Assembly (NCBI GenBank): GCA_019454045.1
Contig: SKCR01035538.1
Coordinates: 1 to 64,000, forward strand
From: Zanthoxylum bungeanum
Taxonomy: Eukaryota > Streptophyta > Magnoliopsida > Sapindales > Rutaceae
Length of the DNA stretch: 64,000 bases
Reading direction: 5' to 3'
Shown here one piece after another: positions 5,608 to 64,000 of the stretch. Position numbers and translations under genes: made by a program. Under the pieces are notes generated by a model, which had not been told where the DNA came from, searched no databases, and saw only the letters and a list, made by a program, of their open reading frames with translations. Each line of letters starts with the position of its first letter. Within the stretch, counting starts at the first letter, position 1.

Positions 5608-5620
5608 ATCTCCCACTTGG
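5608..5620 (-). other. K1 polypurine tract
   Basis: On the minus strand this reads CCAAGTGGGAGAT directly before the 3' LTR start TGTTGG. It is the usual copia plus-strand primer site. The same site is present in K2 and absent from the K3 array. Confidence 0.88.
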
Positions 5621-11429: not shown

Positions 11430-11442
11430 GCTCATGATGCCA
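11430..11442 (-). other. K1 primer-binding site, mutated
   Basis: The plus strand reads GCTCATGATGCCA. The intact K2 site reads GCTCTGATACCA, the complement of TGGTATCAGAGC (initiator tRNA-Met). K1 has an inserted A and a substitution. The site lies one base inside the 5' LTR. Confidence 0.82.
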
Positions 11443-11443
11443 T

Positions 11444-26021: not shown

Positions 26022-26034
26022 ATCTCCCACTTGG
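26022..26034 (-). other. K2 polypurine tract
   Basis: Minus strand CCAAGTGGGAGAT directly before the 3' LTR start. Confidence 0.88.
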
Positions 26035-31860: not shown

Positions 31861-31872
31861 GCTCTGATACCA
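31861..31872 (-). other. K2 primer-binding site (initiator tRNA-Met)
   Basis: Plus-strand GCTCTGATACCA is the exact complement of TGGTATCAGAGC, one base inside the 5' LTR. This is the usual copia minus-strand primer site. Confidence 0.95.
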
Positions 31873-31873
31873 T

Positions 31874-41041: not shown

Positions 41042-41693
41042 TGTTAGACATTATGACCCATAGCGTCACTGTTTTGTAAATGATATTGTATTATTGTACA
41101 AAATTAACTATGTGATAATGAAATTGCCTTTTGCCGTTTTGTAAATTATTTACTTTGATATATTAATGGCAAAAGTCCATATGATTACTTCCGTATTGAG
41201 ATGATATGAGACAGTATCATATAAAAGGTTTAATCATTAAATATCCCTAGTCGGAGTATTATCGAGATCGGACATCGATAATGCGGAATAGACTGGTATT
41301 GCACGTGTGCACGTTGTGATGGCACAACGGCATAGTTCTCATATATTTAAGTATTGGATACTTATGCAAGTGCGATAGGAGGTTGTGTTTTACCGATGGT
41401 ACGGAAAACAGCTTCGCTCTGGATAGACCCCGCGGAATCCCATTGGTAGTATGTCTGCGTGTCTATGGGAGGCCGCATCAGGGTAGGTGTATATGGTCTT
41501 AACCTGAGACTTGCATCGCTAGTACTTGCGACAATCGGTAAACTTGGTTTGGTGGTTCGGGGCTTTAACCGGTTCTGGGTAAGCCTCTTCTGGGTTTATC
41601 GAGAATCGTAGTGTACTGGATGTGATGTCAAGATGGAAGTATCACTTCAGACATATGGAGATGATGATCACGTAGGATACAGAACTAGTACTC

Positions 41694-41700
41694 TATAAAA
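41694..41700 (+). promoter_or_regulatory. Probable TATA box of the K3 LTR
   Basis: CTCTATAAAAGG in the LTR, 653 bp from its start, a plausible core promoter marking the U3/R border. K1 and K2 have CTCTTAAGTGATG-type sequence at this position and lack it. The box is copied into every array unit. Confidence 0.6.
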
Positions 41701-42149
41701 GGTTGCAACCGTCGGGACAATATGACCAGGTCAGGATTGTCCGATTTAAAGAGACTAGTTGTTTGATGTCCGATATATGTTTCGTACGGGCAGACACATT
41801 TCCAGCCCCAGGCCTAACATGTGATCGTCCGATACTGGATCGATGTACGCGATACTACGGTATACTACGCTTGATAAAGATCTAATATTCCAATAAGAAT
41901 ATTTCTGGAGAATTGGGTAGGCATGGCGCTTTGCTAGAAGCCAACCTTGTCTTGTAAATCGGTAAAACGTAGTAGGAGGTACGTACGTGTTCGGATTATC
42001 CAACGACCGTATTTACTGCCAACATATCCGGAGATCTCTTGGGTCGCTTCCTGAATATTCACCTATGATGTTTGATTCGAACTTTATTAATCTTGGATTA
42101 ATTACGGAGAAACTTTACCTTGGATAAAATGCCTAATTAGGAGAGAGAA

Positions 42150-42271
42150 CGATTAATTTGGAATTAATCGATAAAATAATATATTCGATATATTAAACGA
42201 AATTAGATTTCGACGCGGAATTAAAATCGGATTTTAATTCGGGCAAACGAATTAATTTAGAATTAATTCGT
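42150..42271. repeat. Five-hairpin cluster in K3 5' LTR
   Basis: Perfect inverted repeats, each with a 3-nt spacer: 42150-42170 (9-bp stem, TGG), 42177-42195 (8-bp, TCG), 42198-42212 (6-bp, TAG), 42218-42240 (10-bp, CGG) and 42247-42271 (11-bp, TAG). They lie downstream of the TATA box, so they would be transcribed. Confidence 0.93.
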
Positions 42272-42979
42272 TAGCGATGTGAATAGTAATTTGCTAGGCA
42301 TAATTATTTAATTTATGTCGCGACGGAAATTCGTTAATTCGGAATTAGCGAAACCGAGCCCGAAAGTGTTTGCGAACACATTCGTATTTTGAAACGAGTG
42401 GGACCCACAAATCACATCGCGAAGTCTCATCACTTGACACGACTAGTTGATGGATGTATCTAGTCACCTTTATTGGATGATACATTGTCACTATTCTCAA
42501 TGTAAGTAGGTGAGGCCATTTAATGGCTTTTTGGGAGGGAAAACTTTTTCACGTTTTTTGAGGGATATTTACCAAATATTTTTTGGTAATTGTTATCTCA
42601 TCATTCACGGTTTTTGGATAACAGAAAGGAAAAGCAAAGGCATACCAAAAGCCTTCTCTCCCTTTTCTTCTTGCTCACGCCGTGAGCTTCATTTGGGCAA
42701 GAAAAATTGTTTTTCATTCTCTCCATTTGCTAGCACAATTAAGGATCAAAGGAGGTGTTAGGGAAACAACCTTGGAGCTTGGAATACTAAAAGTCTTAAA
42801 GCTTCTTCTTCATTTCTCCTTGGCCGAAAGTTTCCTCTTTGAAGACTCAAGGATTTTCTTCATCATTTTTCGTCACAAGCTTTGTAAGTATGATTCCGCC
42901 ATGCTTCAAGCTTTGCATGTATAAATCGTGTGTTTCATTGGCTTATACTTTCTTTGGGACTAATAATAGAAACCTACAA

Positions 42980-42991
42980 TGGTATCAGAGC
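42980..42991 (+). other. K3 primer-binding site (initiator tRNA-Met)
   Basis: TGGTATCAGAGC, one base after the LTR end CA at 42978. Confidence 0.96.
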
Positions 42992-45211
42992 CATGTTTAA
43001 GCATGAAATACATTAGGGTTAATTTGGGGAAAATTGATTGAAGCATGTTCTTGTGAAATTTGATGATAAAGTATGCTTATATGTATGTTATATGATATTA
43101 TACATGATCAATTTTGAGAAAAATGCATTGGATGATTTTTCCCTAAAATTGTTGCTTTGGCCGAATATGAATGTTCTTGCACTGGATTGTTTTTTTGTTT
43201 ACAAGTTCATTAGATGACTTAAAACAGATACGAGACTTAGATTAGTGATTCAATCGGATTGAAAAACAAATCGAACCAAAAAATCCCTCTTGGCCGAATG
43301 CAATATGGCATGTTAAAGGACTTGATTTTTTGTTCAAATAAATGTTGGACATGTGTTTTGAACAAGTGATGATTAATAAATTAAATTGGTGTTTTGGAAA
43401 TATTTGGTTTAATGAATTAATCATAGATTTACACTTTAATTAATTGAATTTTAAAATTTGGAATATTAAAATTTAATTAATGGGCTTAATTGTAAATTGG
43501 GCTTGTATTATTATATTTGGGCATAATGGGCTTGGTTGGGCCAAGTAGATTTGGGCCAAAAGGATTGGATCCAATTTGAGCTTAAAACACTCCATTAAGT
43601 CCAAATATAGTAAAATGGGCTTTATTGTTTAATTGGGCCTTATGGGCTTGAAATTGATTTTATGGCATTTAAGGGTGATTCCTTATTTGGGCTTGGTAAT
43701 TGGGTTTGACCCACATTGACCAAAGCCCAAGCCTTAATAAATCAATTGAAAGCCCATCAGACTTTAATTAAACAAACATTGGATGTTAGTTGGGCTTGGA
43801 GACCCAATTAGATTAGATTTAGAATCTAAGTCTTTAAAAGCACATTAAAAGTGTAAACATTTAATTTGGAATTAAATAAATTGAATTAGTATTGAATACG
43901 ACTTAAATTGGATTTAACGGGTAGTTCGATATAATTCGTGAATTCGTACCTAATGTACTTATTCTCAAACGAGTTAGACTCGCGCAAAATCAAACCGTTG
44001 TTTGAACATTGGATGATCACTTAAACAAAGACTAATTAATTGGATTGATTGGTTGTATAGCATGTCTTGATTGAATATATATGTATGTGATGAATGAATA
44101 GTGTATATTGGATGGATATTAGAAGGGAAAGGGTAATTTTAGAAATTATTGTAAATTTAGAATTTATAAATTGGACCTGCGTGTCCAGCCTTATCTTTTT
44201 TATCTCTTTGTATTCTCTTCTCACCTAATTCCCCTCAATGTAAATGAGGTTTCTCTTATTGTATTATGTAATTGGGTAGAAGTAGAATAATGCTAGTGGG
44301 GAGAGAAAGGGAGTGATTTGTTCTAGGAACAAGTTGTTTTATATATCCATCCGTATATCACTATTAATTTACTTTACGCACTTTATGATGTTTTAGAAGC
44401 ATGCTTAAGGGTGTGATGATGATGAGACCTAACAAAGATAATAAATTGGTTGCCAATTACGCAAAAATCCCTCAATTTATATTAAGTGATTATCCTTCCA
44501 TTGAATGATTCTTGTTCAAGATCCAAAATTGGCATTGGTTTGTTGGCCAAAGTCAAGACCTTTGTCAATTGAGGATGTACTTGAATCATGAGAGTTTTGT
44601 TCCACATCGGTGTCTTGTCCAAGTTGTGATTTGTTGGCCAAAGTCAAGATCACTTCTTGTCCAACGACATTGATTACGAAACTTTCCTTGTCAATGGGTC
44701 CCGCTTAACTGGAATCATTAGGTTTGTTGTGCCAAAGCCAAGTCCTAGATGATTCGGAGGATATGGTTAGGAAAATGTATTAGATACATTGGCATAAGTA
44801 ATATACATATGTTTTGGATTTGGATGTCCACCTAACCGGATCTAGGAATTGGATGGGATCCAATTGATCTTTGAGATCTACCTAGTTGAATAGCATACAA
44901 TTTGTTGGCCAAAGTCAAGGTTGTGTGTTATTTAACGGGATCCTAGCCCACTAGGAATAGGTTCCCGAGTTCTCGACAGAGGTTAGAGACTTGATGAAAA
45001 TAGTGGGAGGCTAGTATTGAATTTGCAATTTCTTTCAGATACTTAGCCTTACGCGTCTTTCAATATTATTTCGTCTATTTATTAAAATTAGTTGGACTAA
45101 TACATTGTTATTTTTTTTGTAACAGTTTGACTGTACCCATTTTATCGTTAACTAGATAGTTGGACTATCGTAGTTGAGATGGCAAGCAAGGGAAATGTCT
45201 GAGACATCATC
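42992..45211 (+). other. K3 untranslated leader
   Basis: About 2.2 kb, collinear with the reversed leaders of K1 and K2. TTGGCCAA motifs at 44543, 44634 and 44905, plus a TTGTGCCAA variant at ~44727 (spacings about 91, 93 and 178). Several short plus- and minus-strand frames show no domain. The block AATAGTGGGAGGCTAGTATTG (44998-45018) recurs in K1 and K2. Confidence 0.8.
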
Positions 45212-46020
45212 ATGGGTGACAATGTCTTTAAGGGCACAAACTTCGCTGATTGGGAAATGAACCTAAGGATAGTCCTTGGGGCTGAGAGGATGCTGTACAC
45301 TATACAGATACCTCTCCCGCCTAAGCCCACTGACCCACTTGAGCTGGAGTTATGGAAAACTCACAGCGATGATTGTGACACTGCTCAGGCTATTATGTTA
45401 GCTTCGATGACTCAGCACTTTCGTCGCCAGAATAAGGACTTGGATCCTTATAGTATGATGGCTAGACTGAGAGATCTCCACCGCACCAACAAGCGGATGG
45501 AGAGGTACGAGTTGGTGAAGAAACTCTTCCGCGCCCGAATGACTGAAGGCGCATCAGTTGAGGCCCACGGGGCTCAAATGATCGCCGATATTGATGAGTT
45601 GGCCAATATGGGAATAGTCTTGGAGGCTGAGCTGACCGTAGATTTGATCTTACAGTCACTTCCTGATTCTTGGAAACAAATCATAATCAACTATAAGTTG
45701 ATGGACATGGATGACTCTCTTGGAGAGCTGTTATCCATCTTGAAGGAGTCTGAAAAAGAACTCAAAAAGGGGTCAAGCGCGAGGCGCACTATGCATCGAC
45801 CTCTCAGAGGCCAAGGGCTGGGCCCAAAGCTACTGGAGGGGTGAGGAAGAAGAAAATAAGAAAAAGGGTAAAGGCAAGTTGACAAAAGCTTCTGGGAAGC
45901 CAATGGACAAGTCTCAAGATGTCTGCCTCAACTGCGGCAAGAAGGGTCACTGGAAACGTGACTGCCGAATGGGCAGGGACACAGGGAGGATATCAAGGCA
46001 GGCAAGGCACTAGCCTCTGG
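45212..46020 (+). pseudogene. K3 gag with CCHC knuckle
   Basis: ATG at 45212 opens a 210-codon frame: FKGTNFADWEMNLRIVLGAE (residues 6-25), DTAQAIMLASMTQHF, ERYELVKKLFRARM, VDLILQSLPDSWKQII and a C-terminal Lys/Glu/Ser-rich helix. This is the copia gag (UBN2-type) fold, which forms virus-like particles. A frameshift near 45840 separates the C-terminal CLNCGKKGHWKRDC (45924-45965), a perfect CX2CX4HX4C RNA-binding knuckle in another frame. Another shift precedes the protease frame. Upstream ATGs at about 45180-45200 give short frames only, so 45212 is the best start. Capsid part intact; the fusion to pol is broken. Confidence 0.87.
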
Positions 46021-46021
46021 T

Positions 46022-46351
46022 ATGTTTGTTATTGAGATAAATATGACTACTTCTAGTTTTAAAAATTGGATTTTTGATTCTGGTTGTGCTGCTCATATAT
46101 GTACTGATTTGCAGGATCTGCAGAATAGCAGGATGCTGGCTTCATGGGAGGTTGATCTACGAGTCGGAAATGGAACTCCAGTTGCTGTTTTGGCTATAGG
46201 GACTTTTGTTTTGGAATTGCCCTCGGGGCATGTGCTTAAACTTTTGAACTGTTTTTATATACCTAGTTTGACTAGGAATATCATATCTGTATCTTTGTTA
46301 ACCCAGCATGGGTACACTTTAGTATTTAGAAACACTGGGTGTTATTTATAA
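46022..46351 (+). pseudogene. K3 protease
   Basis: The 109-codon frame contains NWIFDSGCAAHIC, with the aspartic-protease DSG triad intact, then VDLRVGNGTPVAVLAIGTF, LLNCFYIPSLTRNIISVSLL and GYTLVF. It ends at an in-frame TAA (46349-46351). The same frame continues beyond the stop into the pre-integrase domain, so only one nonsense mutation separates them. Frameshifted relative to the gag knuckle. Confidence 0.87.
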
Positions 46352-47180
46352 AAAGATGATGCAGAAATTTGCACTGCTGTTGCAAATAATGGCCTTTATA
46401 TTTTGAATATAAATGAATCTCCTAAACATAAAATAACAAACAAAAGGCTCAAAAGGAGTAATCTAAAAGATGAAGCTTACATGTGGCATTGTCGTCTAGG
46501 ACACATTAACAAGACTCGCATATCCACACTTTCGAAGAGTGGGTACTTGGACGGATTTGATCCTAATTCATATGATGTCTGCGAATCTTGTCTTTTAGGC
46601 AAAATGCCTAAATCACCTTTTAGTAGTAAAGGTGAACGTGCCACAGAACTGTTAGCCCTCGTTCATAGCGACGTATGTGGGCCCATGTCTAGCCAGGCTA
46701 GAGGTGGATATCATTACTTCGTAACCTTTACGGATGATGCATCTCGTTATGGTTATGTGTATCTAATGAGACACAAGTCGGAAACTTTTGAGAAATTCAA
46801 AGAGTTTCGACACGAAGTAGAAAAACTAACAGGCAAGAGTATTAAGACATTGCGGTCGGACCATGGTGGCGAATACTTAAGTTATTAGTTTCAAGATTAC
46901 TTGAAAGAATATGGTATTCTTTCACAGTGGACTCCTCCTGGAACACCGCAATTAAACGGTGTGTCTGAACGGAGAAACCGTACCTTGTTAGACATGGTAA
47001 GGTCGATGATGAGTCGCACTGAGCTACCAATATCCTTCTGAAGATACGCATTAAACAGTGCAGTACTTATTTTGAATAAGGTTCCGTCAAAGTCTGTTGA
47101 ATAGACTCCATATGAGATATGGACAGGAGGAAACCAGGTTTCTCTTTCCTGAAGATTTGGGGATGCTGGGCATATGTTAA
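46352..47180 (+). pseudogene. K3 pre-integrase domain and integrase
   Basis: Continues the protease frame. The zinc region WHCRLGHINK, with VCESCLLGKM later, gives the HHCC set. The catalytic core has LVHSDVCGPM (Asp), TFTDDASRYGYVYLMRHKSE (Asp), LRSDHGGEYLSY and, after a TAG at 46886-46888, YGILSQWTPPGTPQLNGVS followed by ERRN (Glu). All three catalytic acids are therefore present in the DNA. Further in-frame stops follow (TGA near 47039, TAG near 47101) before ...TPYEIWTGG. It inserts copia cDNA when intact; this copy is not translatable end to end. Confidence 0.88.
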
Positions 47181-48172
47181 ACGTTTGGAAGGTACCAAAC
47201 TAGAACCCAAATAAGATAAATGCCTTTTCGTGGGATATCCTAGGGAAACCAAATGATATTACTTCTATCACCCACAAGAGAACAAAGTATTTGTTACTCT
47301 ACATGCATTTTTCCTTGAGAAGGAATTCCTAGATGCAGTGGTAAGTGGGAGGAAAGTGGAGCTCGATGAAAATCGTAGTGATACTGTTCCTGGCAATGAA
47401 TCAACGACGGAACATAAACAGACCATCCGGGATGAGTCTGTACCACAATCTTCATATACACAAGGACCGCGTAGGTCGGAGAGAGTCAGGAGAGTACTTG
47501 AGAGGTATGGGTTCCTGATCTCGCCTCATGTAGATATTAATCTTATTGAGGATAATGAACCGGCTACGTATGAGGAAGCAATACAGAATATTGATTCCGC
47601 TTTATGGCAAGAAGCCATGAAGTCCGAGATGGATTCCATGTACGCCAACCAAGTTTGGACACTGGTTGATGCAACAGAAGGCGTAAAGCCTATTGGATGC
47701 AGATGGATCTTCAAGAAGAAGACTGACATGGATGGCAACGTGCAAATGTACAAAGCTAGGCTTGTAGCAAAGGGTATCATCAACAATATGGTATTGATTA
47801 TGACGAAACTTTCTCACCCGTTGCCATGATTAAATCCATTCGGATAATGCTTGCAATAGCTGCATATTTCGATTACGAGATGGACGTTAAAACCGCTTTC
47901 CTTAACGGAAACCTTTTGGAGGATGTTTTATATGCAACAGCCTGACGGTTTTATCGTACCTAGACTTGCAAACAAGGTTTGTAAGTTAAATCGATCCATT
48001 TATGGATTGAAGCAAGCATCACGGTCATGGAATCAGCGTTTTGATGAGATCATAAAAAATATGATTTCGTGCAAAACGCTGATGACCTTGTGTATACAAG
48101 AAGGTTAGTGGGAGAGCACTGACTTTTATTATCCTTTATGTCGACGATGTATTGCTTATAGGCAATGACATT
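47181..48172 (+). pseudogene. K3 reverse transcriptase, N-terminal and catalytic part
   Basis: 47181-47337 is the integrase-RT linker. The frame 47338-47829 gives RRSERVRRVLERYG, YEEAIQNIDSALWQEAMKSE, NQVWTLVDA, GCRWIFKKK and [10 protein letters not shown] frameshift follows, then [31 protein letters not shown] (first Asp), KLNRSIYGLKQASRSW, and after another break LYVDDVLLIGND with the catalytic YVDD at 48137-48148. At least three frame breaks. Domain content is complete; K1 and K2 lack the YVDD part. The array repeat starts just 24 bp beyond YVDD. Confidence 0.9.
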
Positions 48173-49964
48173 CCCATGCTAACGTCGGTGAAAGCTTGGC
48201 TTTCAATAAAATTCTCCATGAAAGATCTGGGAGAAGCAGCCTTTATTCTGGGAATAAAGATCTACCGGGATAGATCTAGAAAGCTGCTTGGACTCTCTCA
48301 GAGCACATATATTGACAAAGTGTTGAAGCGATTCAACATGGATCAATCCAAGAGGGGATTGATGCCAATGTCACGTGGTATCCTTCTGTCTAAAGACATG
48401 TGTCCTAAGACTAAAGAAGAGAGAGATAACATGAGTCGGATACCGTTCGCCTCGGCAGTCGGATCGATCATGTATGCCATGATATGTACGCGACCTGATG
48501 TGTCATATGTTTGAGCATGTGCAGTCGCTATCAGGCCGATCCAGGTGAAGGTCACCGGATGGCAGTTAAGAATATCCTTAAGTATCTTAGACGAACTAAG
48601 GATGCTTTCTTAATATATGGAGGTGGAGAACTTGAGGTATCTGGGTACACCGATGCAAGTTTCCAAACCGACAAGGACAACTTCAAGTCGCAATCGGGGT
48701 ACATTTTTTGTTTAAATAACGGAGCAGTGAGCTGGAAATCTTCCAAGCAAGATACTGTTGCCGATTCAACAACAGAGCGGAGTATATCGCGCGCGTCGGA
48801 AGCAGCAAAGGAGGCAGTTTTGATCCGAAAATTCCTAATCGGATTAGGAGTAGTTCCGTTAGCAGCTGAGCCCGTGCCATTTTATTGTGACAATAATGGG
48901 CTATAGCACAAGCTAAGGAACCGAGGTCTCATCAACGATCAAGCATGTTCTTCGGCGTTACCATCTGATTCGGGAGATTATACATCATGGCGATGTAAAA
49001 GTCGAGAAGGTCGCATCGGATGACAACATTGCAGATCCGCTGACGAAAGCTGTTCTTCAGCATGTGTTTGAACGACATATATCATAGTTCAGGATGGATG
49101 TGATGTCAAGATGGAAGTATCACTTCAGACATATGGAGATGATGATCACGTAGGATACAGAACTAGTACTCTATAAAAGGTTGCAACCATCGGGACAATA
49201 TGACCAGGTCAGGATTGTCCGATTTAAAGAGACTAGTTGTTTGATGTCTGATATATGTTTCGTACGGGGCAGACACATTTCCAGCCCCAGGCCTAACATG
49301 TGATCGTCCGATACTGGATCGATATATGCGATACTACGGTATACTACGCTTGATAAAGATCTAATATTCCAATAAGAATATTTCTGGAGAATTGGGTAGG
49401 CATGGCGCTTTGCTAGAAGCCAACCTTGTCTTGTAAATCGGTAAAAACGTAGTACGAGGTACGTACATGTTCGGATTATCCAACGACCGTATTTACTGCC
49501 AACATATACGGAGATCTCTTGGGTCGCTTCCTGAAGATTCACCTATGATGTTTGATTCAAACTTTATTAATCTTGGATTAATTACGGAGAACTTTATCTT
49601 GGATAAAATGCCTAATTAGAGAGAGAACGATTAATTTGGAATTAATCGATAAAATAATATATTCGATATATTAAACGAAATTAGATTTCGACGCGGAATT
49701 AAAATCGGATTTTAATTCGGGCAAACGAATTAATTTAGAATTAATTCGTTAGCGATGTGAATAGTAATTTCGCTAGGCATAATATTTAATTTACGTCGCG
49801 ACGGAAATTCGTTAATTCGGAATTAGCGAAACCGAGCCCGAAAGTGTTTGCGGACACATTCGTATTTTGAAACGAGTGGGACCCGCAAATCACATCGCGA
49901 AGTCTCATCACTTGACACGACTAGTTGATGGATGTATCTAGTCACCTTTATTGGATGATACATT
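48173..49964 (+). repeat. Array unit 0 (contiguous with K3 pol)
   Basis: Pol part 48173-49100: FSMKDLGEAAFILGIKIYRD, a frame break at 48510 (a C lost in the VSYALSM block), then RNase H with GYTDASF (Asp), SSKQDTVADSTTE, YCDNNG (Asp) and DNIADPLTKAV (Asp). One base is missing in the TTEAEY block, as in all units, but an extra base a few codons later (CGCGCGCG) restores the frame here only. Another base is missing after AATGGG (48900). LTR part 49101-49964. Confidence 0.93.
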
Positions 49965-51775
49965 CCCATGCTAACGTCGGTGAAAGTTTGGCTTTCAATA
50001 AAATTCTCCATGAAAGATCTGGGAGAAGCAGCCTTTATTCTGGGAATAAAGATCTACCGGGATAGATCTAGAAAGCTGCTTGGACTCTCCCAGAGCACAT
50101 ATATTGACAAAGTGTTGAAGCGATTCAACATGGATCAATCCAAGAGGGGATTGATGCCAATGTCACGTGGTATTTTTCTGTCTAAAGACATGTGTCCTAA
50201 GACTAAAGAGAGAGAGATAACATGAGTCGGATACCGTTCGCCTCGGCAGTCGGATCGATCGATCATGTATGCCATGATATGTACGCGACCTGATGTGTCA
50301 TATGCTTTGAGCATGTGCAGTCGCTATCAGGCCGATCCAGGTGAAGGTCACTGGATGGCAGTTAAGAATATCCTTAAGTATCTTAGACGAACTAAGGATG
50401 CTTTCTTAATATATGGAGGTGGAGAACTTGAGGTATCTGGGTACACCGATGCAAGTTTCCAAACCGACAAGGACGACTTCAAGTCGCAATCGGGGTACAT
50501 TTTTTGTTTAAATAACGGAGCAGTGAGCTGGAAATCTTCCAAGCAAGATACTGTTGCCGATTCAACAACAGAGCGGAGTATATCGCTGCGTCGGAAGCAG
50601 CAAAGGAGGCAGTTTTGATCCGAAAATTCCTAATCGGATTAGGAGTAGTTCCGTTAGCAGCTGAGCCCGTGCCATTTTATTGTGACAATAATGGGGCTAT
50701 AGCACAAGCTAAGGAACCGAGGTCTCATCAACGATCCAAGCATGTTCTTCGGCGTTACCATCTGATTCGGGAGATTATACATCATGGCGATGTAAAAGTC
50801 GAGAAGGTCGCATCGGATGACAACATTGCAGATCCGCTGACGAAAGCTGTTCTTCAGCATGTGTTTGAACGACATATACATAGTTCAGGATGGATGTGAT
50901 GTCAAGATGGAAGTATCACTTCAGACATATGGAGATGATGATCACGTAGGATACAGAACTAGTACTCTATAAAAGGTTGCAACCATCGGGACAATATGAC
51001 CAGGTCAGGAGTGATCAGAGGTTGACGATTTAAAGAGACTAGTTGTTTGATGTCTGATATATGTTTCGTACGGGGCAGACACATTTCCAGCCCCAGGCCT
51101 AACATGTGATCGTCCGATACTGGATCGATGTATGCGATACTACGGTATATACTACGCTTGATAAAGATCTAATATTCCAATAAGAATATTTCTGGAGAAT
51201 TGGGTAGGCATGGCGCTTTGCTAGAAGCCAACCTTGTCTTGTAAATCGGTAAAAACGTAGTACGAGGTACGTACATGTTCGGATTATCCAACGACCGTAT
51301 TTACTGCCAACATATACGGAGATCTCTTGGGTCGCTTCCTGAAGATTCACCTATGATGTTTGATTCAAACTTTATTAATCTTGGATTAATTACGGAGAAA
51401 CTTTATCTTGGATAAAATGCCTAATTAGGAGAGAGAACGATTAATTTGGAATTAATCGATAAAATAATATATTCGATATATTAAACGAAATTAGATTTCG
51501 ACGCGGAATTAAAATCGGATTTTAATTCGGGCAAACGAATTAATTTAGAATTAATTCGTTAGCGATGTGAATAGTAATTTCGCTAGGCATAATTATTTAA
51601 TTTACGTCGCGACGGAAATTCGTTAATTCGGAATTAGCGAAACCGAGCCCGAAAGTGTTTGCGGACACATTCGTATTTTGAAACGAGTGGGACCCGCAAA
51701 TCACATCGCGAAGTCTCATCACTTGACACGACTAGTTGATGGATGTATCTAGTCACCTTTATTGGATGATACATT
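49965..51775 (+). repeat. Array unit 1
   Basis: 1811 bp. Frames 49968-50225, 50265-50618 and 50615-50899 cover the RT end and RNase H. It carries an extra GATC (CGGATCGATCGATCATG, 50252-50268) and a local rearrangement of the LTR part near 51008-51030. Variant state: ILGIK, CTRPDV, QADPG; LTR type a (CCAACCTTG). Confidence 0.92.
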
Positions 51776-53570
51776 CCCATGCTAACGTCGGTGAAAGTTT
51801 GGCTTTCAATAAAATTCTCCATGAAAGATCTGGGAGAAGCAGCTTTATTCTGGGAATAAAGATCTACCGGGATAGATCTAGAAAGCTGCTTGGACTCTCC
51901 CAGAGCACATATATTGACAAAGTGTTGAAGCGATTCAACATGGATCAATCCAATAGGGGATTGATGCCAATGTCACGTGGTATTTTTCTGTCTAAAGACA
52001 TGTGTCCTAAGACTAAAGAAGAGAGAGATAACATGAGTCGGATACCGTTCGCCTCGGCAGTCGGATCGATCATGTATGCCATGATATGTACGCGACCTGA
52101 TGTGTCATATGCTTTGAGCATGTGCAGTCGCTATCAGGCCGATCCAGGTGAAGGTCACTGGATGGCAGTTAAGAATATCCTTAAGTATCTTAGACGAACT
52201 AAGGATGCTTTCTTAATATATGGAGGTGGAGAACTTGAGGTATCTGGGTACACCGATGCAAGTTTCCAAACCGACAAGGACGACTTCAAGTCGCAATCGG
52301 GGTACATTTTTTGTTTAAATAACGGAGCAGTGAGCTGGAAATCTTCCAAGCAAGATACTGTTGCCGATTCAACAACAGAGCGGAGTATATCGCTGCGTCG
52401 GAAGCAGCAAAGGAGGCAGTTTTGATCCGAAAATTCCTAATCGGATTAGGAGTAGTTCCGTTAGCAGCTGAGCCCGTGCCATTTTATTGTGACAATAATG
52501 GGGCTATAGCACAAGCTAAGGAACCGAGGTCTCATCAACGATCCAAGCATGTTCTTCGGCGTTACCATCTGATTCGGGAGATTATACATCATGGCGATGT
52601 AAAAGTCGAGAAGGTCGCATCGGATGACAACATTGCAGATCCGCTGACGAAAGCTGTTCTTCAGCATGTGTTTGAACGACATATACATAGTTCAGGATGG
52701 ATGTGATGTCAAGATGGAAGTATCACTTCAGACATATGGAGATGATGATCACGTAGGATACAGAACTAGTACTCTATAAAAGGTTGCAACCATCGGGACA
52801 ATATGACCAGGTCAGGATTGTCCGATTTAAAGAGACTAGTTGTTTGATGTCCGATATATGTTTCATACGGGGCAGACACATTTCCAGCCCCAGGCCTAAC
52901 ATGTGATCGTCCGATACTGGATCGATGTACGTGATACTACGGTATACTACGCTTGATAAAGATCTAATATTCCAATAAGAATATTTCTGGAGAATTGGGT
53001 AGGCATGGCGCTTTGCTAGAAGCCAACATTGTCTTGTAAATCGGTAAAAACGTAGTACGAGGTACGTACGTGTTCGGATTATCCAACGACCGTATTTACT
53101 GCCAACATATCCGGAGATCTCTTGGGTCGCTTCCTGAAGATTCACCTATGATGTTTGATTCAAACTTTATTAATCTTGGATTAATTACGGAGAAACTTTA
53201 TCTTGGATAAAATGCCTAATTAGGAGAGAGAACAATTAATTTGGAATTAATCGATAAAATAATATATTCGATATATTAAACGAAATTAGATTTCGACGCG
53301 GAATTAAAATCGGATTTTAATTCGGGCAAACGAATTAATTTAGAATTAATTCGTTAGCGATGTGAATAGTAATTTCGCTAGGCATAATTATTTAATTTAC
53401 GTCGCGACGGAAATTCGTTAATTCGGAATTAGCGAAACCAAGCCCGAAAGTGTTTGCGGACACATTCGTATTTTGAAACGAGTGGGACCCGCAAATCACA
53501 TCGCAAAGTCTCATCACTTGACACGACTAGTTGATGGATGTATCTAGTCACCTTTATTGGATGATACATT
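51776..53570 (+). repeat. Array unit 2, with 229-codon fused LTR/pol frame
   Basis: A one-base loss in AGCAGCTTTATT shifts the preceding out-of-frame part into register. The frame 51736-52425 therefore runs from LTR sequence (MMDVSSHLYW) into RT and RNase H (to TTERSISLRRKQ, where the shared frameshift garbles it). Variant state: ILGIK, SNRG, TRPDV; LTR type b (CCAACATTG, GAGAACAATT). RNase H C-terminus at 52422-52706. Confidence 0.92.
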
Positions 53571-55367
53571 CCCATGCTAACGTCGGTGAAAGTTTGGCTT
53601 TCAATAAAATTCTCCATGAAAGATCTGGGAGAAGCAGCCTTTATTATGGGAATAAAGATCTACCGGGATAGATCTAGAAAGCTGCTTGGACTCTCCCAGA
53701 GCACATATATTGACAAAGTGTTGAAGCGATTCAACATGGATCAATCCAAGAGGGGATTGATGCCAATGTCACGTGGTATTTTTCTGTCTAAAGACATGTG
53801 TCCTAAGACTAAAAAGAGAGAGAGATAACATGAGTCGGATACCGTTCGCCTCGGCAGTCGGATCGATCATGTATGCCATGATATGTATGCGACCTGATGT
53901 GTCATATGCTTTGAGCATGTGCAGTCGCTATCAGGTCGATCCAGGTGAAGGTCACTGGATGGCAGTTAAGAATATCCTTAAGTATCTTAGACGAACTAAG
54001 GATGCTTTCTTAATATATGGAGGTGGAGAACTTGAGGTATCTGGGTACACGGATGCAAGTTTCCAAACCGACAAGGACGACTTCAAGTCGCAATCGGGGT
54101 ACATTTTTTGTTTAAATAACGGAGCAGTGAGCTGGAAATCTTCCAAGCAAGATACTGTTGCCGATTCAACAATAGAGCGGAGTATATCGCTGCGTCGGAA
54201 GCAGCAAAGGAGGCAGTTTTGATCCGAAAATTCCTAATCGGATTAGGAGTAGTTCCGTTAGCAGCTGAGCCCGTGCCATTTTATTGTGACAATAATGGGG
54301 CTATAGCACAAGCTAAGGAACCGAGGTCTCATCAACGATCCAAGCATGTTCTTCGGCGTTACCATCTGATTCGGGAGATTATACATCATGGCGATGTAAA
54401 AGTCGAGAAGGTCGCATCGGATGACAACATTGCAGATCCGCTGACGAAAGCTGTTCTTCAGCATGTGTTTGAACGACATATACATAGTTCAGGATGGATG
54501 TGATGTCAAGATGGAAGTATCACTTCAGACATATGGAGATGATGATCACGTAGGATACAGAACTAGTACTCTATAAAAGGTTGCAACCATCGGGACAATA
54601 TGACCAGGTCAGGATTGTCCGATTTAAAGAGACTAGTTGTTTGATGTCTGATATATGTTTCGTACGGGGCAGACACATTTCCAGCCCCAGGCCTAACATG
54701 TGATCGTCCGATACTGGATCGATGTATGCGATACTACGGTATACTACGCTTGATAAAGATCTAATATTCCAATAAGAATATTTCTGGAGAATTGGGTAGG
54801 CATGGCGCTTTGCTAGAAGCCAACCTTGTCTTGTAAATCGGTAAAAACGTAGTACGAGGTACGTACATGTTCGGATTATCCAACGACCGTATTTACTGCC
54901 AACATATACGGAGATCTCTTGGGTCGCTTCCTGAAGATTCACCTATGATGTTTGATTCAAACTTTATTAATCTTGGATTAATTACGGAGAAACTTTATCT
55001 TGGATAAAATGCCTAATTAGGAGAGAGAACGATTAATTTGGAATTAATCGATAAAATAATATATTCGATATATTAAACGAAATTAGATTTCGACGCGGAA
55101 TTAAAATCGGATTTTAATTCGGGCAAACGAATTAATTTAGAATTAATTCGTTAGCGATGTGAATAGTAATTTCGCTAGGCATAATTATTTAATTTACGTC
55201 GCGACGGAAATTCGTTAATTCGGAATTAGCGAAACCGAGCCCGAAAGTGTTTGCGGACACATTCGTATTTTGAAACGAGTGGGACCCGCAAATCACATCG
55301 CGAAGTCTCATCACTTGACACGACTAGTTGATGGATGTATCTAGTCACCTTTATTGGATGATACATT
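53571..55367 (+). repeat. Array unit 3
   Basis: Pol variant type b: IMGIK, CMRPDV, QVDPG, CAATAGAG in the TTE block. LTR part type a. Frames 53574-53828, 53773-54222 and 54219-54503; one frame break in the AAAAGAGAG stretch (53812-53820). Confidence 0.92.
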
Positions 55368-57164
55368 CCCATGCTAACGTCGTGTGAAAGTTTGGCTTTC
55401 AATAAAATTCTCCATGAAAGATCTGGGAGAAGCAGCCTTTATTCTGGGAATAAAGATCTACCGGGATAGATCTAGAAAGCTGCTTGGACTCTCCCAGAGC
55501 ACATATATTGACAAAGTGTTGAAGCGATTCAACATGGATCAATCCAATAGGGGATTGATGCCAATGTCACGTGGTATTTTTCTGTCTAAAGACATGTGTC
55601 CTAAGACTAAAGAAGAGAGAGATAACATGAGTCGGATACCGTTCGCCTCGGCAGTCGGATCGATCATGTATGCCATGATATGTACGCGACCTGATGTGTC
55701 ATATGCTTTGAGCATGTGCAGTCGCTATCAGGCCGATCCAGGTGAAGGTCACTGGATGGCAGTTAAGAATATCCTTAAGTATCTTAGACGAACTAAGGAT
55801 GCTTTCTTAATATATGGAGGTGGAGAACTTGAGGTATCTGGGTACACCGATGCAAGTTTCCAAACCGACAAGGACGACTTCAAGTCGCAATCGGGGTACA
55901 TTTTTTGTTTAAATAACGGAGCAGTGAGCTGGAAATCTTCCAAGCAAGATACTGTTGCCGATTCAACAACAGAGCGGAGTATATCGCTGCGTCGGAAGCA
56001 GCAAAGGAGGCAGTTTTGATCCGAAAATTCCTAATCGGATTAGGAGTAGTTCCGTTAGCAGCTGAGCCCGTGCCATTTTATTGTGACAATAATGGGGCTA
56101 TAGCACAAGCTAAGGAACCGAGGTCTCATCAACGATCCAAGCATGTTCTTCGGCGTTACCATCTGATTCAGGAGATTATACATCATGGCGATGTAAAAGT
56201 CGAGAAGGTCGCATCGGATGACAACATTGCAGATCCGCTGACGAAAGCTGTTCTTCAGCATGTGTTTGAACGACATATACATAGTTCAGGATGGATGTGA
56301 TGTCAAGATGGAAGTATAACTTCAGACATATGGAGATGATGATCACGTAGGATACAAAACTAGTACTCTATAAAAGGTTGCAACCATCGGGACAATATGA
56401 CCAGGTCAGGATTGTCCGATTTAAAGAGACTAGTTGTTTGATGTCCGATATATGTTTCATACGGGGCAGACACATTTCCAGCCCCAGGCCTAACATGTGA
56501 TCGTCCGATACTGGATCGATGTACGTGATACTACGGTATACTACGCTTGATAAAGATCTAATATTCCAATAAGAATATTTCTGGAGAATTGGGTAGGCAT
56601 GGCGCTTTGCTAGAAGCCAACATTGTCTTGTAAATCGGTAAAAACGTAGTACGAGGTACGTACGTGTTCGGATTATCCAACGACCGTATTTACTGCCAAC
56701 ATATCCGGAGATCTCTTGGGTCGCTTCCTGAAGATTCACCTATGATGTTTGATTCAAACTTTATTAATCTTGGATTAATTACGGAGAAACTTTATCTTGG
56801 ATAAAATGCCTAATTAGGAGAGAGAACAATTAATTTGGAATTAATCGATAAAATAATATATTCGATATATTAAACGAAATTAGATTTCGACGCGGAATTA
56901 AAATCGGATTTTAATTCGGGCAAACGAATTAATTTAGAATTAATTCGTTAGCGATGTGAATAGTAATTTCGCTAGGCATAATTATTTAATTTACGTCGCG
57001 ACGGAAATTCGTTAATTCGGAATTAGCGAAACCAAGCCCGAAAGTGTTTGCGGACACATTCGTATTTTGAAACGAGTGGGACCCGCAAATCACATCGCAA
57101 AGTCTCATCACTTGACACGACTAGTTGATGGATGTATCTAGTCACCTTTATTGGATGATACATT
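55368..57164 (+). repeat. Array unit 4
   Basis: Pol type a with the SNRG variant shared only with unit 2; LTR type b. A small change at the junction (CGTCGTGTGAAAG) lets the frame 55384-56019 (211 codons) run unbroken from the RT end through most of RNase H. The C-terminal RNase H frame is 56016-56300. Confidence 0.92.
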
Positions 57165-58949
57165 CCCATGCTAACGTCGGTGAAAGTTTGGCTTTCAATA
57201 AAATTCTCCATGAAAGATCTGGGAGAAGCAGCCTTTATTATGGGAATAAAGATCTACCGGGATAGATCTAGAAAGCTGCTTGGACTCTCCCAGAGCACAT
57301 ATATTGACAAAGTGTTGAAGCGATTCAACATGGATCAATCCAAGAGGGGATTGATGCCAATGTCACGTGGTATTTTTCTGTCTAAAGACATGTGTCCTAA
57401 GACTAAAGAAGAGAGAGATAACATGAGTCGGATACCGTTCGCCTCGGCAGTCGGATCGATCATGTATGCCATGATATGTATGCGACCTGATGTGTCATAT
57501 GCTTTGAGCATGTGCAGTCGCTATCAGGTCGATCCAGGTGAAGGTCACTGGATGGCAGTTAAGAATATCCTTAAGTATCTTAGACGAACTAAGGATGCTT
57601 TCTTAATATATGGAGGTGGAGAACTTGAGGTATCTGGGTACACGGATGCAAGTTTCCAAACCGACAAGGACGACTTCAAGTCGCAATCGGGGTACATTTT
57701 TTGTTAAATAACGGAGCAGTGAGCTGGAAATCTTCCAAGCAAGATACTGTTGCCGATTCAACAATAGAGCGGAGTATATCGCTGCGTCGGAAGTAGCAAA
57801 GGAGGCAGTTTTGATCCGAAAATTCCTAATCGGATTAGGAGTAGTTCCGTTAGCAGCTGAGCCCGTGCCATTTTATTGTGACAATAATGGGGCTATAGCA
57901 CAAGCTAAGGAACCGAGGTCTCATCAACGATCCAAGCATGTTCTTCGGCGTTACCATCTGATTCGGGAGATTATACATCATGGCGATGTAAAAGTCGAGA
58001 AGGTCGCATCGGATGACAACATTGCAGATCCGCTGACGAAAGCTGTTCTTCAGCATGTGTTTGAACGACATATACATAGTTCAGGATGGATGTGATGTCA
58101 AGATGGAAGTATCACTTCAGACATATGGAGATGATGATCACGTAGGATACAGAACTAGTACTCTATAAAAGGTTGCAACCATCGGACAATATGACCAGGT
58201 CAGGATTGTCGATTTAAGAGATAGTTGTTTGATGTCCGATATATGTTTCGTACGGGGCAGACACATTTCCAGCCCCAGGCCTAACAGTGATCGTCCGATA
58301 CTGGATCGATGTACGCGATACTACGTATACTACGCTTGATAAGATCTAATATTCCAATAAGAATATTTCTGGAGAATTGGGTAGGCATGGCGCTTTGCTA
58401 GAAGCCAACCTTGTCTTGTAAATCGGTAAAAACGTAGTAACGAGGTACGTACTGTTCGGATTATCCAACGACCGTATTTACTGCCAACATATACGGAGAT
58501 CTCTTGGGTCGCTTCCTGAAGATTCACCTATGATGTTTGATTCAAACTTTATTAATCTTGGATTAATTACGGAGAAACTTTATCTTGGATAAAATGCCTA
58601 ATTAGGAGAGAGAACGATTAATTTGGAATTAATCGATAAAATAATATATTCGATATATTAAACGAAATTAGATTTCGACGCGGAATTAAAATCGGATTTT
58701 AATTCGGGCAAACGAATTAATTTAGAATTAATTCGTTAGCGATGTGAATAGTAATTCGCTAGGCATAATTATTTAATTACGTCGCGACGGAAATTCGTTA
58801 ATTCGGAATTAGCGAAACCGAGCCGAAAGTGTTTGCGGACACATTCGTATTTTGAAACGAGTGGGACCCGCAAATCACATCGTGAAGTCTCATCACTTGA
58901 CACGACTAGTTGATGGATGTATCTAGTCACCTTTATTGGATGATACATT
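57165..58949 (+). repeat. Array unit 5
   Basis: Pol type b, as unit 3 (IMGIK, CMRPDV, QVDPG); LTR type a with several single-base losses (58180-58330, 58750-58830). A T lost in TTTTTGTTAAATAACGG and a TAG in GAAGTAGCAAAGG are shared with unit 6. Frames 57168-57707 and 57811-58095. Confidence 0.92.
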
Positions 58950-60743
58950 CCCATGCTAACGTCGGTGAAAGTTTGGCTTTCAATAAAATTCTCCATGAAA
59001 GATCTGGGAGAAGCAGCCTTTATTCTGGGAATAAAGATCTACCGGGATAGATCTAGAAAGCTGCTTGGACTCTCCCAGAGCACATATATTGACAAAGTGT
59101 TGAAGCGATTCAACATGGATCAATCCAAGAGGGGATTGATGCCAATGTCACGTGGTATTTTTCTGTCTAAAGACATGTGTCCTAAGACTAAAGAGAGAGA
59201 GATAACATGAGTCGGATACCGTTCGCCTCGGCAGTCGGATCGATCATGTATGCCATGATATGTACGCGACCTGATGTGTCATATGCTTTGAGCATGTGCA
59301 GTCGCTATCAGGCCGATCCAGGTGAAGGTCACACTGGATGGCAGTTAAGAATATCCTTAAGTATCTTAGACGAACTAAGGATGCTTTCTTAATATATGGA
59401 GGTGGAGAACTTGAGGTATCTGGGTACACCGATGCAAGTTTCCAAACCGACAAGGATGACTTCAAGTCGCAATCGGGGTACATTTTTTGTTAAATAACGG
59501 AGCAGTGAGCTGGAAATCTTCCAAGCAAGATACTGTTGCCGATTCAACAACAGAGCGGAGTATATCGCTGCGTCGGAAGTAGCAAAGGAGGCAGTTTTGA
59601 TCCGAAAATTCCTAATCGGATTAGGAGTAGTTCCGTTAGCAGCTGAGCCCGTGCCATTTTATTGTGACAATAATGGGGCTATAGCACAAGCTAAGGAACC
59701 GAGGTCTCATCAACGATCCAAGCATGTTCTTCGGCGTTACCATCTGATTCGGGAGATTATACATCATGGCGATGTAAAAGTCGAGAAGGTCGCATCGGAT
59801 GACAACATTGCAGATCCGCTGACGAAAGCTGTTCTTCAGCATGTGTTTGAACGACATATACATAGTTCAGGATGGATGTGATGTCAAGATGGAAGTATCA
59901 CTTCAGACATATGGAGATGATGATCACGTAGGATACAGAACTAGTACTCTATAAAAGGTGCAACCATCGGGACAATATGACCAGGTCAGGATTGTCCGAT
60001 TTAAAGAGACTAGTTGTTTGATGTCCGATATATGTTTCGTACGGGGCAGACACATTTCCAGCCCCAGGCCTAACATTTGATCGTCCGATACTGGATCGAT
60101 GTACGTGATACTACGGTATACTACGCTTGATAAAGATCTAATATTCCAATAAGAATATTTCTGGAGAATTGGGTAGGCATGGCGCTTTGCTAGAAGCCAA
60201 CATTGTCTTGTAAATCGGTAAAAACGTAGTACGAGGTACGTACGTGTTCGGATTATCCAACGACCGTATTTACTGCCAACATATCCGGAGATCTCTTGGG
60301 TCGCTTCCTGAAGATTCACCTATGATGTTTGATTCAAACTTTATTAATCTTGGATTAATTACGGAGAAACTTTATCTTGGATAAAATGCCTAATTAGGAG
60401 AGAGAACAATTAATTTGGAATTAATCGATAAAATAATATATTCGATATATTAAACGAAATTAGATTTCGACGCGGAATTAAAATCGGATTTTAATTCGGG
60501 CAAACGAATTAATTTAGAATTAATTCGTTAGCGATGTGAATAGTAATTTCGCTAGGCATAATTATTTAATTTACGTCGCGACGGAAATTCGTTAATTCGG
60601 AATTAGCGAAACCAAGCCCGAAAGTGTTTGCGGACACATTCGTATTTTGAAACGAGTGGGACCCGCAAATCACATCGCGAAGTCTCATCACTTGACACGA
60701 CTAGTTGATGGATGTATTAGTCACCTTTATTGGATGATACATT
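58950..60743 (+). repeat. Array unit 6
   Basis: Pol type a (CTRPDV, QADPG) with an inserted CA at GGTCACACTGG (~59330); shares the two unit-5 changes near 59490 and 59580. LTR part type b. Frames 58953-59210, 59207-59392 and 59597-59881. Confidence 0.92.
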
Positions 60744-62540
60744 CCCATGCTAACGTCGGTGAAAGTTTGGCTTTCAATAAAATTCTCCATGAAAGATCTG
60801 GGAGAAGCAGCCTTTATTCTGGGAATAAAGATCTACCGGGATAGATCTAGAAAGCTGCTTGGACTCTCCCAGAGCAATATATTGACAAAGTGTTGAAGCG
60901 ATTCAACATGGATCAATCCAAGAGGGGATTGATGCCAATGTCACGTGGTATTTTTCTGTCTAAAGACATGTGTCCTAAGACTAAAGAAGAGAGAGATAAC
61001 ATGAGTCGGATACCGTTCGCCTCGGCAGTCGGATCGATCATGTATGCCATGATATGTATGCGACCTGATGTGTCATATGCTTTGAGCATGTGCAGTCGCT
61101 ATCAGGTCGATCCAGGTGAAGGTCACTGGATGGCAGTTAAGAATCCTTAAGTATCTTAGACGAACTAAGGATGCTTTCTTAATATATGGAGGTGGAGAAC
61201 TTGAGGTATCTGGGTACACGGATGCAAGTTTCCAAACCGACAAGGACGACTTCAAGTCGCAATCGGGGTACATTTTTTGTTTAAATAACGGAGCAGTGAG
61301 CTGGAAATCTTCCAAGCAAGATACTGTTGCCGATTCAACAATAGAGCGGAGTATATCGCTGCGTCGGAAGCAGCAAAGGAGGCAGTTTTGATCCGAAAAT
61401 TCCTAATCGGATTAGGATTGGAGTAGTTCCGTTAGCAGCTGAGCCCGTACCATTTTATTGTGTCAATAATGGGGCTATAGCACAAGCTAAGGAACCGAGG
61501 TCTCATCAACGATCCAAGCATGTTCTTTGGCGTTACCATCTGATTCGGGAGATTATAAATCATGGCGATGTAAAAGTCGAGAAGGTCGCATCGGATGACA
61601 ACATTGCAGATCCGCTGACGAAAGCTGTTCTTCAGCATGTGTTTGAACGACATATACATAGTTCAGGATGGATGTGATGTCAAGATGGAAGTATCACTTC
61701 AGACATATGGAGATGATGATCACGTAGGATACAGAACTAGTACTCTATAAAAGGTTGCAACCGTCGGGACAATATGACCAGGTCAGGATTGTTTGATTTA
61801 AAGAGACTAGTTGTTTGATGTCCGATATATGTTTCGTACGGGGCAGACACATTTCCAGCCCCAGGCCTAACATGTGATCGTCCGATACTGGATCGATGTA
61901 CGCGATACTATGGTATACTACGCTTGATAAAGATCTAATATTCCAATAAGAATATTTCTGGAGAATTGGGTAGGCATGGCGCTTTGCTAGAAGCCAACCT
62001 TGTCTTGTAAATCGGTAAAAACGTAGTACGAGGTACGTACGTGTTCGGATTATCCAACGACCGTATTTCCTGCCAACATATCCGGAGATCTCTTGGGTCG
62101 CTTCCTGAAGATTCACCTATGATGTTTGATTCAAACTTTATTAATCTTGGATTAATTACGGAGAAACTTTATCTTGGATAAAATGCCTAATTAGGAGAGA
62201 GAACGATAATTTGTAATTAATCGATAAAATAATATATTCGATATATTAAACGAAATTAGATTTCGACGCGGAATTAAAATCGGATTTTAATTCGGGCAAA
62301 CGAATTAATTTAGAATTAATTCGTTAGCGATGTGAATAGTAAGTTCGCTAGGCATAATTATTTAATTTACGTCGCGACGGAAATTCGTTAATTCGGAATT
62401 AGCGAAACCAAGCCCGAAAGTGTTTGCGGACACATTCGTATTTTGAAACGAGTGGGACCCGCAAATCACATCGCGAAGTCTCATCACTTGACACGACTAG
62501 TTGATGGATGTATCTAGTCACCTTTATTGGATGATACATT
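60744..62540 (+). repeat. Array unit 7
   Basis: Pol mostly type b (CMRPDV, QVDPG, CAATAGAG) but ILGIK. Shares with unit 8 the changes GTACCATTTT, TGTGTCAATAAT (Asp to Val in the RNase H CDNNG block), TTATAAATCATGG, GATTGTTTGATTT, TACTATGG and TTTCCTGCC. Private changes include loss of CA in AGAGCAATATATT and a duplicated GGATT near 61415. Confidence 0.92.
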
Positions 62541-64000
62541 CCCATGCTAACGTCGGTGAAAGTTTGGCTTTCAATAAAATTCTCCATGAAAGATCTGGGA
62601 GAAGCAGCCTTTATTCTGGGAATAAAGATCTACCGGGATAGATCTAGAAAGCTGCTTGGACTCTCCCAGAGCACATATATTGACAAAGTGTTGAAGCGAT
62701 TCAACATGGATCAATCCAAGAGGGGATTGATGCCAATGTCACGTGGTATTTTTCTGTCTAAAGACATGTGTCCTAAGACTAAAGAAGAGAGAGATAACAT
62801 GAGTCGGATACCGTTCGCCTCGGCAGTCGGATCGATCATGTATGCCATGATATGTATGCGACCTGATGTGTCATATGCTTTGAGCATGTGCAGTCGCTAT
62901 CAGGTCGATCCAGGTGAAGGTCACTGGATGGCAGTTAAGAATATCCTTAAGTATCTTAGACGAACTAAGGATGCTTTCTTAATATATGGAGGTGGAGAAC
63001 TTGAGGTATCTGGGTACACGGATGCAAGTTTCCAACCGACAAGGACGACTTCAAGTCGCAATCGGGGTACATTTTTTGTTTAAATAACGGAGCAGTGAGC
63101 TGGAAATCTTCCAAGCAAGATACTGTTGCTGATTCAACAATAGAGCGGAGTATATCGCTGCGTCGGAAGCAGCAAAGGAGGCAGTTTTGATCCGAAAATT
63201 CCTAATCGGATTAGGAGTAGTTCCGTTAGCAGCTGAGCCCGTACCATTTTATTGTGTCAATAATGGGGCTATAGCACAAGCTAAGGAACCGAGGTCTCAT
63301 CAACGATCCAAGCATGTTCTTCGGCGTTACCATCTGATTCGGGAGATTATAAATCATGGCGATGTAAAAGTCGAGAAGGTCGCATCGGATGACAACATTG
63401 CAGATCCGCTGACGAAAGCTGTTCTTCAGCATGTGTTTGAACGACATATACATAGTTCAGGATGGATGTGATGTCAAGATGGAAGTATCACTTCAGACAT
63501 ATGGAGATGATGATCACGTAGGATACAGAACTAGTACTCTATAAAAGGTTGCAACCGTCGGGACAATATGACCAGGTCAGGATTGTTTGATTTAAAGAGA
63601 CTAGTTGTTTGATGTCCGATATATGTTTCGTACGGGGCAGACACATTTCCAGCCCCAGGCCTAACATGTGATCGTCCGATACTGGATCGATGTACGCGAT
63701 ACTATGGTATACTACGCTTGATAAAGATCTAATATTCCAATAAGAATATTTCTGGAGAATTGGGTAGGCATGGCGCTTTGCTAGAAGCCAACCTTGTCTT
63801 GTAAATCGGTAAAAACGTAGTACGAGGTACGTACGTGTTCGGATTATCCAACGACCGTATTTCCTGCCAACATATCCGGAGATCTCTTGGGTCGCTTCCT
63901 GAAGATTCACCTATGATGTTTGATTCAAACTTTATTAATCTTGGATTAATTACGGAGAAACTTTATCTTGGATAAAATGCCTAATTAGGAGAGAGAACGA
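62541..64000 (+). repeat. Array unit 8 (cut by window end)
   Basis: Near-identical to unit 7 in pol and LTR parts, with one A lost near 63034 (CCAACCGACAAGG) that shifts the frame 62544-63083. RNase H C-terminus at 63187-63471. The sequence ends inside the LTR part just before the hairpin cluster. Confidence 0.92.

Follow-up and report, generated by a model that had tools for sequence, protein, structure and literature searches.

Organization of the K3 locus

We analyzed a window of 64,000 nucleotides from Zanthoxylum bungeanum (bases 1–64000 of the 83,338-bp contig SKCR01035538.1; coordinates above 64000 are those of the contig), in which a long terminal repeat (LTR) retrotransposon, here termed K3, contains a head-to-tail array of a chimeric unit made from its own pol and LTR sequences. 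K3 is a Ty1/copia element on the + strand. It begins with an undeleted 5' LTR of 1,937 bp (41042–42978, +), which is followed by the primer-binding site TGGTATCAGAGC (42980–42991, +), which we take to be of the initiator methionine tRNA type. A Pfam search with 10 stop-free frames recovered, in this order along the + strand upstream of the array, a fragment of copia gag in an open frame (45203–45841; PF14223, E = 1.6e-14), a fragment of the Pol beta-barrel domain (Pol_BBD, 45962–46348; PF22936, E = 6.5e-16), the pre-integrase domain with part of the integrase core (46352–46885; PF13976, E = 5.4e-18, and PF00665, E = 1e-05, the latter at 26.2 bits and so below the cut-off of 32.6), and the start of the copia reverse transcriptase (RT; 47257–47826; positions 1–44 of RVT_2, PF07727, E = 1.1e-09). 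A further frame upstream of the array, 42622–42921, had no Pfam match. The placement of the integrase after gag and ahead of an RVT_2-type RT is the Ty1/copia order, and the element has the LTRs, the tRNA primer site and the 5-bp target-site duplication of this group, the 3' LTR being without its first 575 bp. The polypurine tract before the 3' LTR is absent from K3, having been deleted in all nine units of the array; its loss is a later event in this copy and no case against Ty1/copia membership.

The target-site duplication CTCAA lies directly before 41042 (41037–41041) and directly after 64830 (contig 64831–64835, outside the window), so that K3 measures 23,789 bp in total with the array within it. 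On its left, the minus strand encodes the RNase H domain of a pol that belongs to another retroelement (40461–41039; PF17917, E = 3.9e-30), and on its right, again on the minus strand, lies an RT domain (contig 64904–65665; PF00078, RVT_1, E = 7.2e-26). This arrangement fits one pol, in our reading of the Ty3 type, cut in two by K3. Because the same CTCAA stands on both sides and the two halves of one pol flank the element, K3 is one insertion with the array inside it, in line with an earlier note on this DNA, which had argued against several insertions of the element.

The terminal 3' LTR (63463–64830) is 98.2% identical to the corresponding part of the 5' LTR (41617–42978) over 1,368 columns of a BLAST alignment with 19 mismatches, while a MAFFT alignment gives 22 substitutions over 1,362 sites, a Kimura two-parameter distance (K2P) of 0.0164. 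Grass LTRs change at a rate of 1.3e-8 per site and year. At this rate, which may not be that of the host, the K3 insertion would be about 0.6 million years old, a value to be read as an order of magnitude only.

A tandem array of nine chimeric units

In a self-comparison of the window, direct repeats spaced by multiples of about 1.8 kb, with 97.6–98.8% identity, extended from 48168 as far as position 64000. When the comparison was extended to the whole contig and the repeats were cut at the duplication junction described below, these resolved, as assembled, into nine head-to-tail units (48168–64330), where the earlier note had counted at least 8.8 copies. The repeat ends at 64330–64335, approximately 330 bp beyond the window edge. 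All units are on the + strand: U1 (48168–49959; 1,792 bp), U2 (49960–51770; 1,811 bp), U3 (51771–53565; 1,795 bp), U4 (53566–55362; 1,797 bp), U5 (55363–57159; 1,797 bp), U6 (57160–58944; 1,785 bp), U7 (58945–60738; 1,794 bp), U8 (60739–62535; 1,797 bp) and U9 (62536–64000 in the window, continuing to contig 64330; 1,795 bp). The left edge of the array is continuous with the parental pol, and the right edge runs unbroken into the remainder of the 3' LTR, which ends at 64830. With both edges continuous with K3, the proposal that the 3' part of a copia element gave rise to the units, and that these lie in one piece with their source, is borne out.

Each unit combines the end of pol with LTR positions 576–1445, the two being joined by a deletion. 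In U1, the pol part extends to 49093, a single A stands at 49094, and LTR position 576 begins at 49095. The LTR part is 96.8–98.3% identical to 41617–42486 of the K3 5' LTR in the eight units for which it is complete in the window. On the pol side, the first unit matched RVT_2 positions 180–242, and the next frame after it (48499–48903) matched no Pfam family; among the five unit frames submitted to Pfam (two from U1 and one each starting near U3, U5 and U6), three gave the RVT_2 tail only and two gave nothing. The RT end and the LTR fragment that the earlier note placed in the unit are thus supported by these matches. The RNase H that it placed between them has no Pfam match, and we infer it from the position at the end of pol and from an end motif that is presumably its own. 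One TATAAAA occurs per unit, equivalent to LTR position 653 in the K3 5' LTR, and could hint at a promoter-like sequence; we see no sign of function for the array. TRF did not list the approximately 1.8-kb array among its results for the window, the longest period it reported being 500, and Rfam at gathering thresholds gave no match in the window.

Two junctions confined to one locus

The units are delimited by two kinds of junction. The first, a deletion junction (CAGG/A/TGG, 49093–49095, +), connects pol, which reads up to CATAGTTCAGG, through one A to LTR position 576, and recurs with its last G at 50889, 52696, 54493, 56290, 58085, 59871, 61667 and 63461. Lost in the deletion were the end of the 3' untranslated region (UTR), the polypurine tract and positions 1–575 of the 3' LTR; the 5' LTR still has these 575 bp. 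The second, a duplication junction (ACATT, 49960–49964, +), joins the LTR (...GGATGAT/ACATT) to pol (ACATT/CCCATGC) and recurs at 51771, 53566, 55363, 57160, 58945, 60739 and 62536; the ACATT is a microhomology present in both parents, at 42482–42486 in the LTR and at 48168–48172 in pol. There are nine deletion junctions versus eight duplication junctions, the last unit having no duplication junction on its right. The earlier statement that every unit has the same two junctions needs this amendment, although the junctions are indeed fixed; likewise, a single founder was amplified, but two rearrangements, a deletion and a tandem duplication, rather than one define its unit. An alternative reading of the bases at 49090–49100 is a GGAT repeat (CAGGAT/GGATG), in keeping with a short templated insert in place of a single free A.

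A search of the plant's own genome with a 1,901-base query across the units scored 39 of 14,453 candidates, K3's own contig being absent from the list, and 30 family loci were fetched out of the 39 places with a pol match. At these 39 places, the pol matches end at query base 1290 in 38 (one at 1302), and the LTR matches begin at base 1292 in 18 of 19 (one at 1293), which is where the deletion break lies. At the duplication break, pol matches start at base 361 in all 39, and LTR matches end at base 365 in 18 of 19 (one at 354), giving the five bases shared with the pol start. In all 30 fetched loci, CATAGTTCAGG leads on into the 3' UTR and the polypurine tract, with small differences in two of them (L013 and L015), and the LTR-side motif of the deletion junction is exact in 28 of the 30.

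As this search was not exhaustive, we used short junction patterns, whose counts are whole, against the assembly of 3.956 Gb and 51,709 contigs with at most 3 mismatches. The deletion junction was matched nine times and the duplication junction eight times, in every instance on K3's contig. The same patterns read backward, as controls, gave 0 matches each in the whole assembly, and an uninterrupted 31-base LTR pattern was matched 2,957 times (1,515 + 1,442), two of these being K3's own. Since both junctions are confined, within the assembly, to the K3 locus while the uninterrupted LTR is found 2,957 times, the array is a single-locus proto-satellite made after the insertion, and neither a dispersed satellite nor a transposing chimera. 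The earlier note had named dispersed copies of the junctions as the sign of a transposing chimeric element; the restriction of the junctions found in the assembly to this contig speaks against such an element. By the same counts, which apply to assembled sequence, it is highly improbable that the K3 array is merely one member of a dispersed satellite family, even though its unit size and homogeneity would fit one.

In one respect the array resembles a satellite, consisting as it does of homogeneous head-to-tail monomers. Satellites extend over tens of kb to Mb and/or occupy many loci, whereas a single array of about 16 kb was found here. For this reason, the array should not yet be called a satellite, and the designation "satellite DNA" in the earlier note does not hold in its usual sense.

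Unit divergence and growth of the array

The 36 unit pairs differ by 3–29 substitutions each, and none are identical. This bears on the possibility that the extra units are an artefact, created when the reads of just one or two copies were assembled. Assemblies often get the copy number of tandem arrays wrong; nevertheless, all the pairs differ, private and shared variants occur in both the pol and the LTR parts, and the array is anchored on either side in a half of the pol that K3 interrupts, making such an artefact very unlikely.

We then defined derived states relative to the commonest family base at columns with at least 90% agreement (917 in pol and 841 in the LTR). In the pol part, the units sharing derived states are U4+U6+U8+U9 (4 sites), U2–U9 (3), U8+U9 (3) and three single-site groups, and in the LTR part they are U8+U9 (4), U1+U2+U4 (3), U3+U5+U7 (3), U3+U5 (2) and five single-site groups. 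All four combinations of states occur in 43 of 276 pairs of informative sites, namely 30 of 140 pol–LTR pairs, 8 of 91 within the LTR and 5 of 45 within pol. As these groupings contradict one another, we conclude that units have exchanged some of their sequence; a share of the four-combination pairs could result from recurrent mutation. The mosaic make-up of the units suggests that unequal exchange or conversion went through several rounds. An alternative for the growth step alone is rolling-circle copying of an excised circular unit, reinserted by homology. It is among the general mechanisms listed for tandem repeats (PMC3648361, PMC12628747) and would yield head-to-tail copies; a single burst, however, predicts near-identical, star-like units in place of the nested and mosaic groups observed. 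We consider it unlikely as the means of growth, although one such round among several would be compatible with the data.

The mean distance between units is 16.1 substitutions for next neighbours, 13.3 for second neighbours and 18–21 up to six units apart, and then rises to 25 and 29. Within U2–U7, the mean next-neighbour distance exceeds the second-neighbour distance by 10.65 substitutions (exact permutation p = 0.011). At the left end, the pol part of U1 keeps the family state at 3 sites where U2–U9 share a change, as expected for an array edge; unequal exchange predicts divergent array edges. One derived LTR state is common to the 5' LTR and the units, and as this sole shared state is present in all nine units, there is no sign of conversion between the 5' LTR and single units. 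In the LTR part of U6 (alignment columns 1078–1091), five private base changes and a 3-bp gap are clustered within 14 columns, perhaps through one local repair or template-switch event, or else through an alignment or sequence error.

Order of events and proposed mechanism

Reverse transcription gives both LTRs an identical U3. The 5' LTR is complete, whereas at the 3' LTR the first 575 bp and the polypurine tract are missing, and the deletion would for this reason postdate integration. Because all nine units carry it, it either preceded or accompanied the duplication or reached the units through conversion. An array formed before integration, through reverse transcription or recombination of cDNA, with K3 inserting as a 24-kb element, clashes with the shared U3, and no further copy of either junction was found in the assembly. 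We regard it as highly improbable, although strand transfer has been put forward as a possible source of the tandem repeats within Ogre elements (PMC7004042).

We put the probability that the array arose in situ after the insertion of K3 and grew by exchange at roughly 0.8. On this account, K3 integrated into the pol of another retroelement, making the CTCAA duplication that now flanks it, as the sequence shows. A deletion, the break of which is directly visible, would after integration have taken the end of the 3' UTR together with the polypurine tract and the start of the 3' LTR, leaving an extra A. The stretch that starts in the RT end of pol and stops at LTR position 1445 would, in that lineage, have been copied in tandem across the ACATT microhomology, as the junction suggests. 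The resulting 1.8-kb direct repeat could then have passed through several rounds of unequal sister-chromatid exchange and/or conversion, some of which perhaps moved two units at a time, and the nine units so produced would have retained the edges of the founder, with parental pol on the left and the remaining 3' LTR on the right.

The founding step has a second possible route at the level of the whole element. Here, unequal recombination between the LTRs of K3 would have generated an LTR–internal–LTR–internal–LTR arrangement, and a later deletion across ACATT would have taken the end of the middle LTR, the primer site, gag and half of pol, giving the same junction. Exchange between LTRs yielding tandem elements has been described in the literature (PMC7215508, PMC12628747), and, judging from the junction, the product would be identical at the sequence level. 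Against this route, it needs one extra step, the deletion of the LTR start is in all nine units and must hence have come earlier or spread afterwards, and no full internal copy is left in the array. It differs in the founding step only, and we hold it to be possible but doubtful. Between these two partly overlapping routes, we clearly favor the direct founding duplication. In a bolder version of in-situ origin, which we offer tentatively and consider rather improbable, a single event of replication-based repair shortly after the insertion of K3 would have produced both the deletion, extra base included, and the duplication at the microhomology. The insertion would itself have triggered the birth of the array, and the array would since have evolved like a small satellite, showing edge effects and a higher-order period of two units.

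Some observations weigh against our preferred account. First, direct duplication cannot be told apart from LTR–LTR exchange followed by deletion. Second, a two-unit period tested over all nine units gives p = 0.197, and the U2–U7 subset was picked after the distances had been seen. Third, there is a conflict over timing. In the LTR parts, all units share 1 change that the 5' LTR does not have, against 6 found in the 5' LTR alone, a pattern that would suit an early duplication. Across the 917 columns of the pol parts, by contrast, 8 changes are common to all units, and the duplication was maybe later. The single-copy pol just upstream of the array has 16 changes in 1,453 columns, and some of the 8 shared pol changes may predate the insertion. 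As the LTR and pol hints conflict, we claim no date for the first duplication and place it only after the insertion and before most of the divergence between units.

Neighboring elements and other repeats

Two related elements, K1 (3582–13454, −) and K2 (24002–33900, −), are found in the same window, with LTRs of about 2 kb and 92.8% likeness to each other. Their 5-bp target-site duplications are GTTGC and AATGG, and their LTR K2P distances 0.027 and 0.007, respectively. K3 is more distant from both (73–80% in internal pieces and approximately 78–90% in LTR pieces), and a reading of K3 as a minus-strand element like K1 and K2 was ruled out by the open reading frames and Pfam. Adjoining K2 is a 456-bp direct tandem duplication (34045–34956), the two copies of which are 96.3% identical. 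There is also a two-copy direct repeat at 36909–37159 (126 columns, 85.7%) and, at 8915–9094, an overlapping match of the sequence to itself at an offset of about 52 bases (137 columns, 81%). Beyond the window, contig 68003–83338 (L009–L011) holds related LTR and internal pieces in both orientations with nested elements.

Comparison with known retrotransposon-derived repeats

Tandem repeats derived from retrotransposons are already known, including CRM1TR and CRM4TR (PMC3648361), nine Ogre-derived satellites (PMC7004042) and Cassandra arrays (PMC7215508), and have been reviewed (PMC9659126, PMC12628747). A two-stage model posits few tandem copies first and expansion later (PMC12628747). Among the titles and abstract openings listed in literature searches and the passages covered of these five papers, there was no copia pol–LTR array inside one insertion, although one may well have been published elsewhere.

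The closest parallel is with CRM1TR and CRM4TR of maize. Like the K3 array, these are wholly derived from an LTR retrotransposon, combine LTR and internal sequence through an illegitimate junction, and have conversion or unequal exchange proposed for their growth (PMC3648361); the K3 unit has the same make-up, with fixed junctions. They differ in stemming from Ty3/gypsy centromeric elements and in joining LTR and UTR, in contrast to the pol and LTR of K3. Further, 187 full-length CRM1TR monomers were extracted, compared to nine K3 units, and their LTR-UTR~LTR founder was proposed by the authors (PMC3648361), its survival with a target site not being shown in the text covered, whereas the K3 founder survives.

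The Ogre-derived satellites of Lathyrus sativus likewise grew inside LTR retrotransposons and are at various stages of expansion, but start from short 3' UTR tandem repeats in many dispersed elements (PMC7004042). The K3 duplication, unlike these, was found in a single copy of its family and includes both coding sequence and LTR, with 30 family loci showing an undisturbed 3' UTR and polypurine tract. Cassandra also forms head-to-tail retroelement arrays, for which LTR–LTR recombination is discussed as a start; these consist of whole small elements in many plant species, with no rearranged chimeric unit in the text covered (PMC7215508). Sobo of wild potato shares with K3 a kilobase-scale, LTR-related monomer in one chromosomal region, but its monomer is 4.7 kb, extends over about 360 kb and has other sequences in the unit (as cited in PMC3648361 and PMC9659126).

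The beginnings of satellites are mostly inferred from arrays without a surviving founder. What is unusual in K3 is that the founder has been preserved along with both junctions and both edges, with source, insertion site, breakpoints, edges and LTR clock all in less than 24 kb. Other LTR places of the family, 30 loci of which were used here, can supply ancestral states, and the order of insertion, deletion, duplication and growth is testable at one locus. Among the known systems, the K3 array is a retrotransposon-derived tandem repeat at small copy number with its founder still around it: a good case study and not a new kind.

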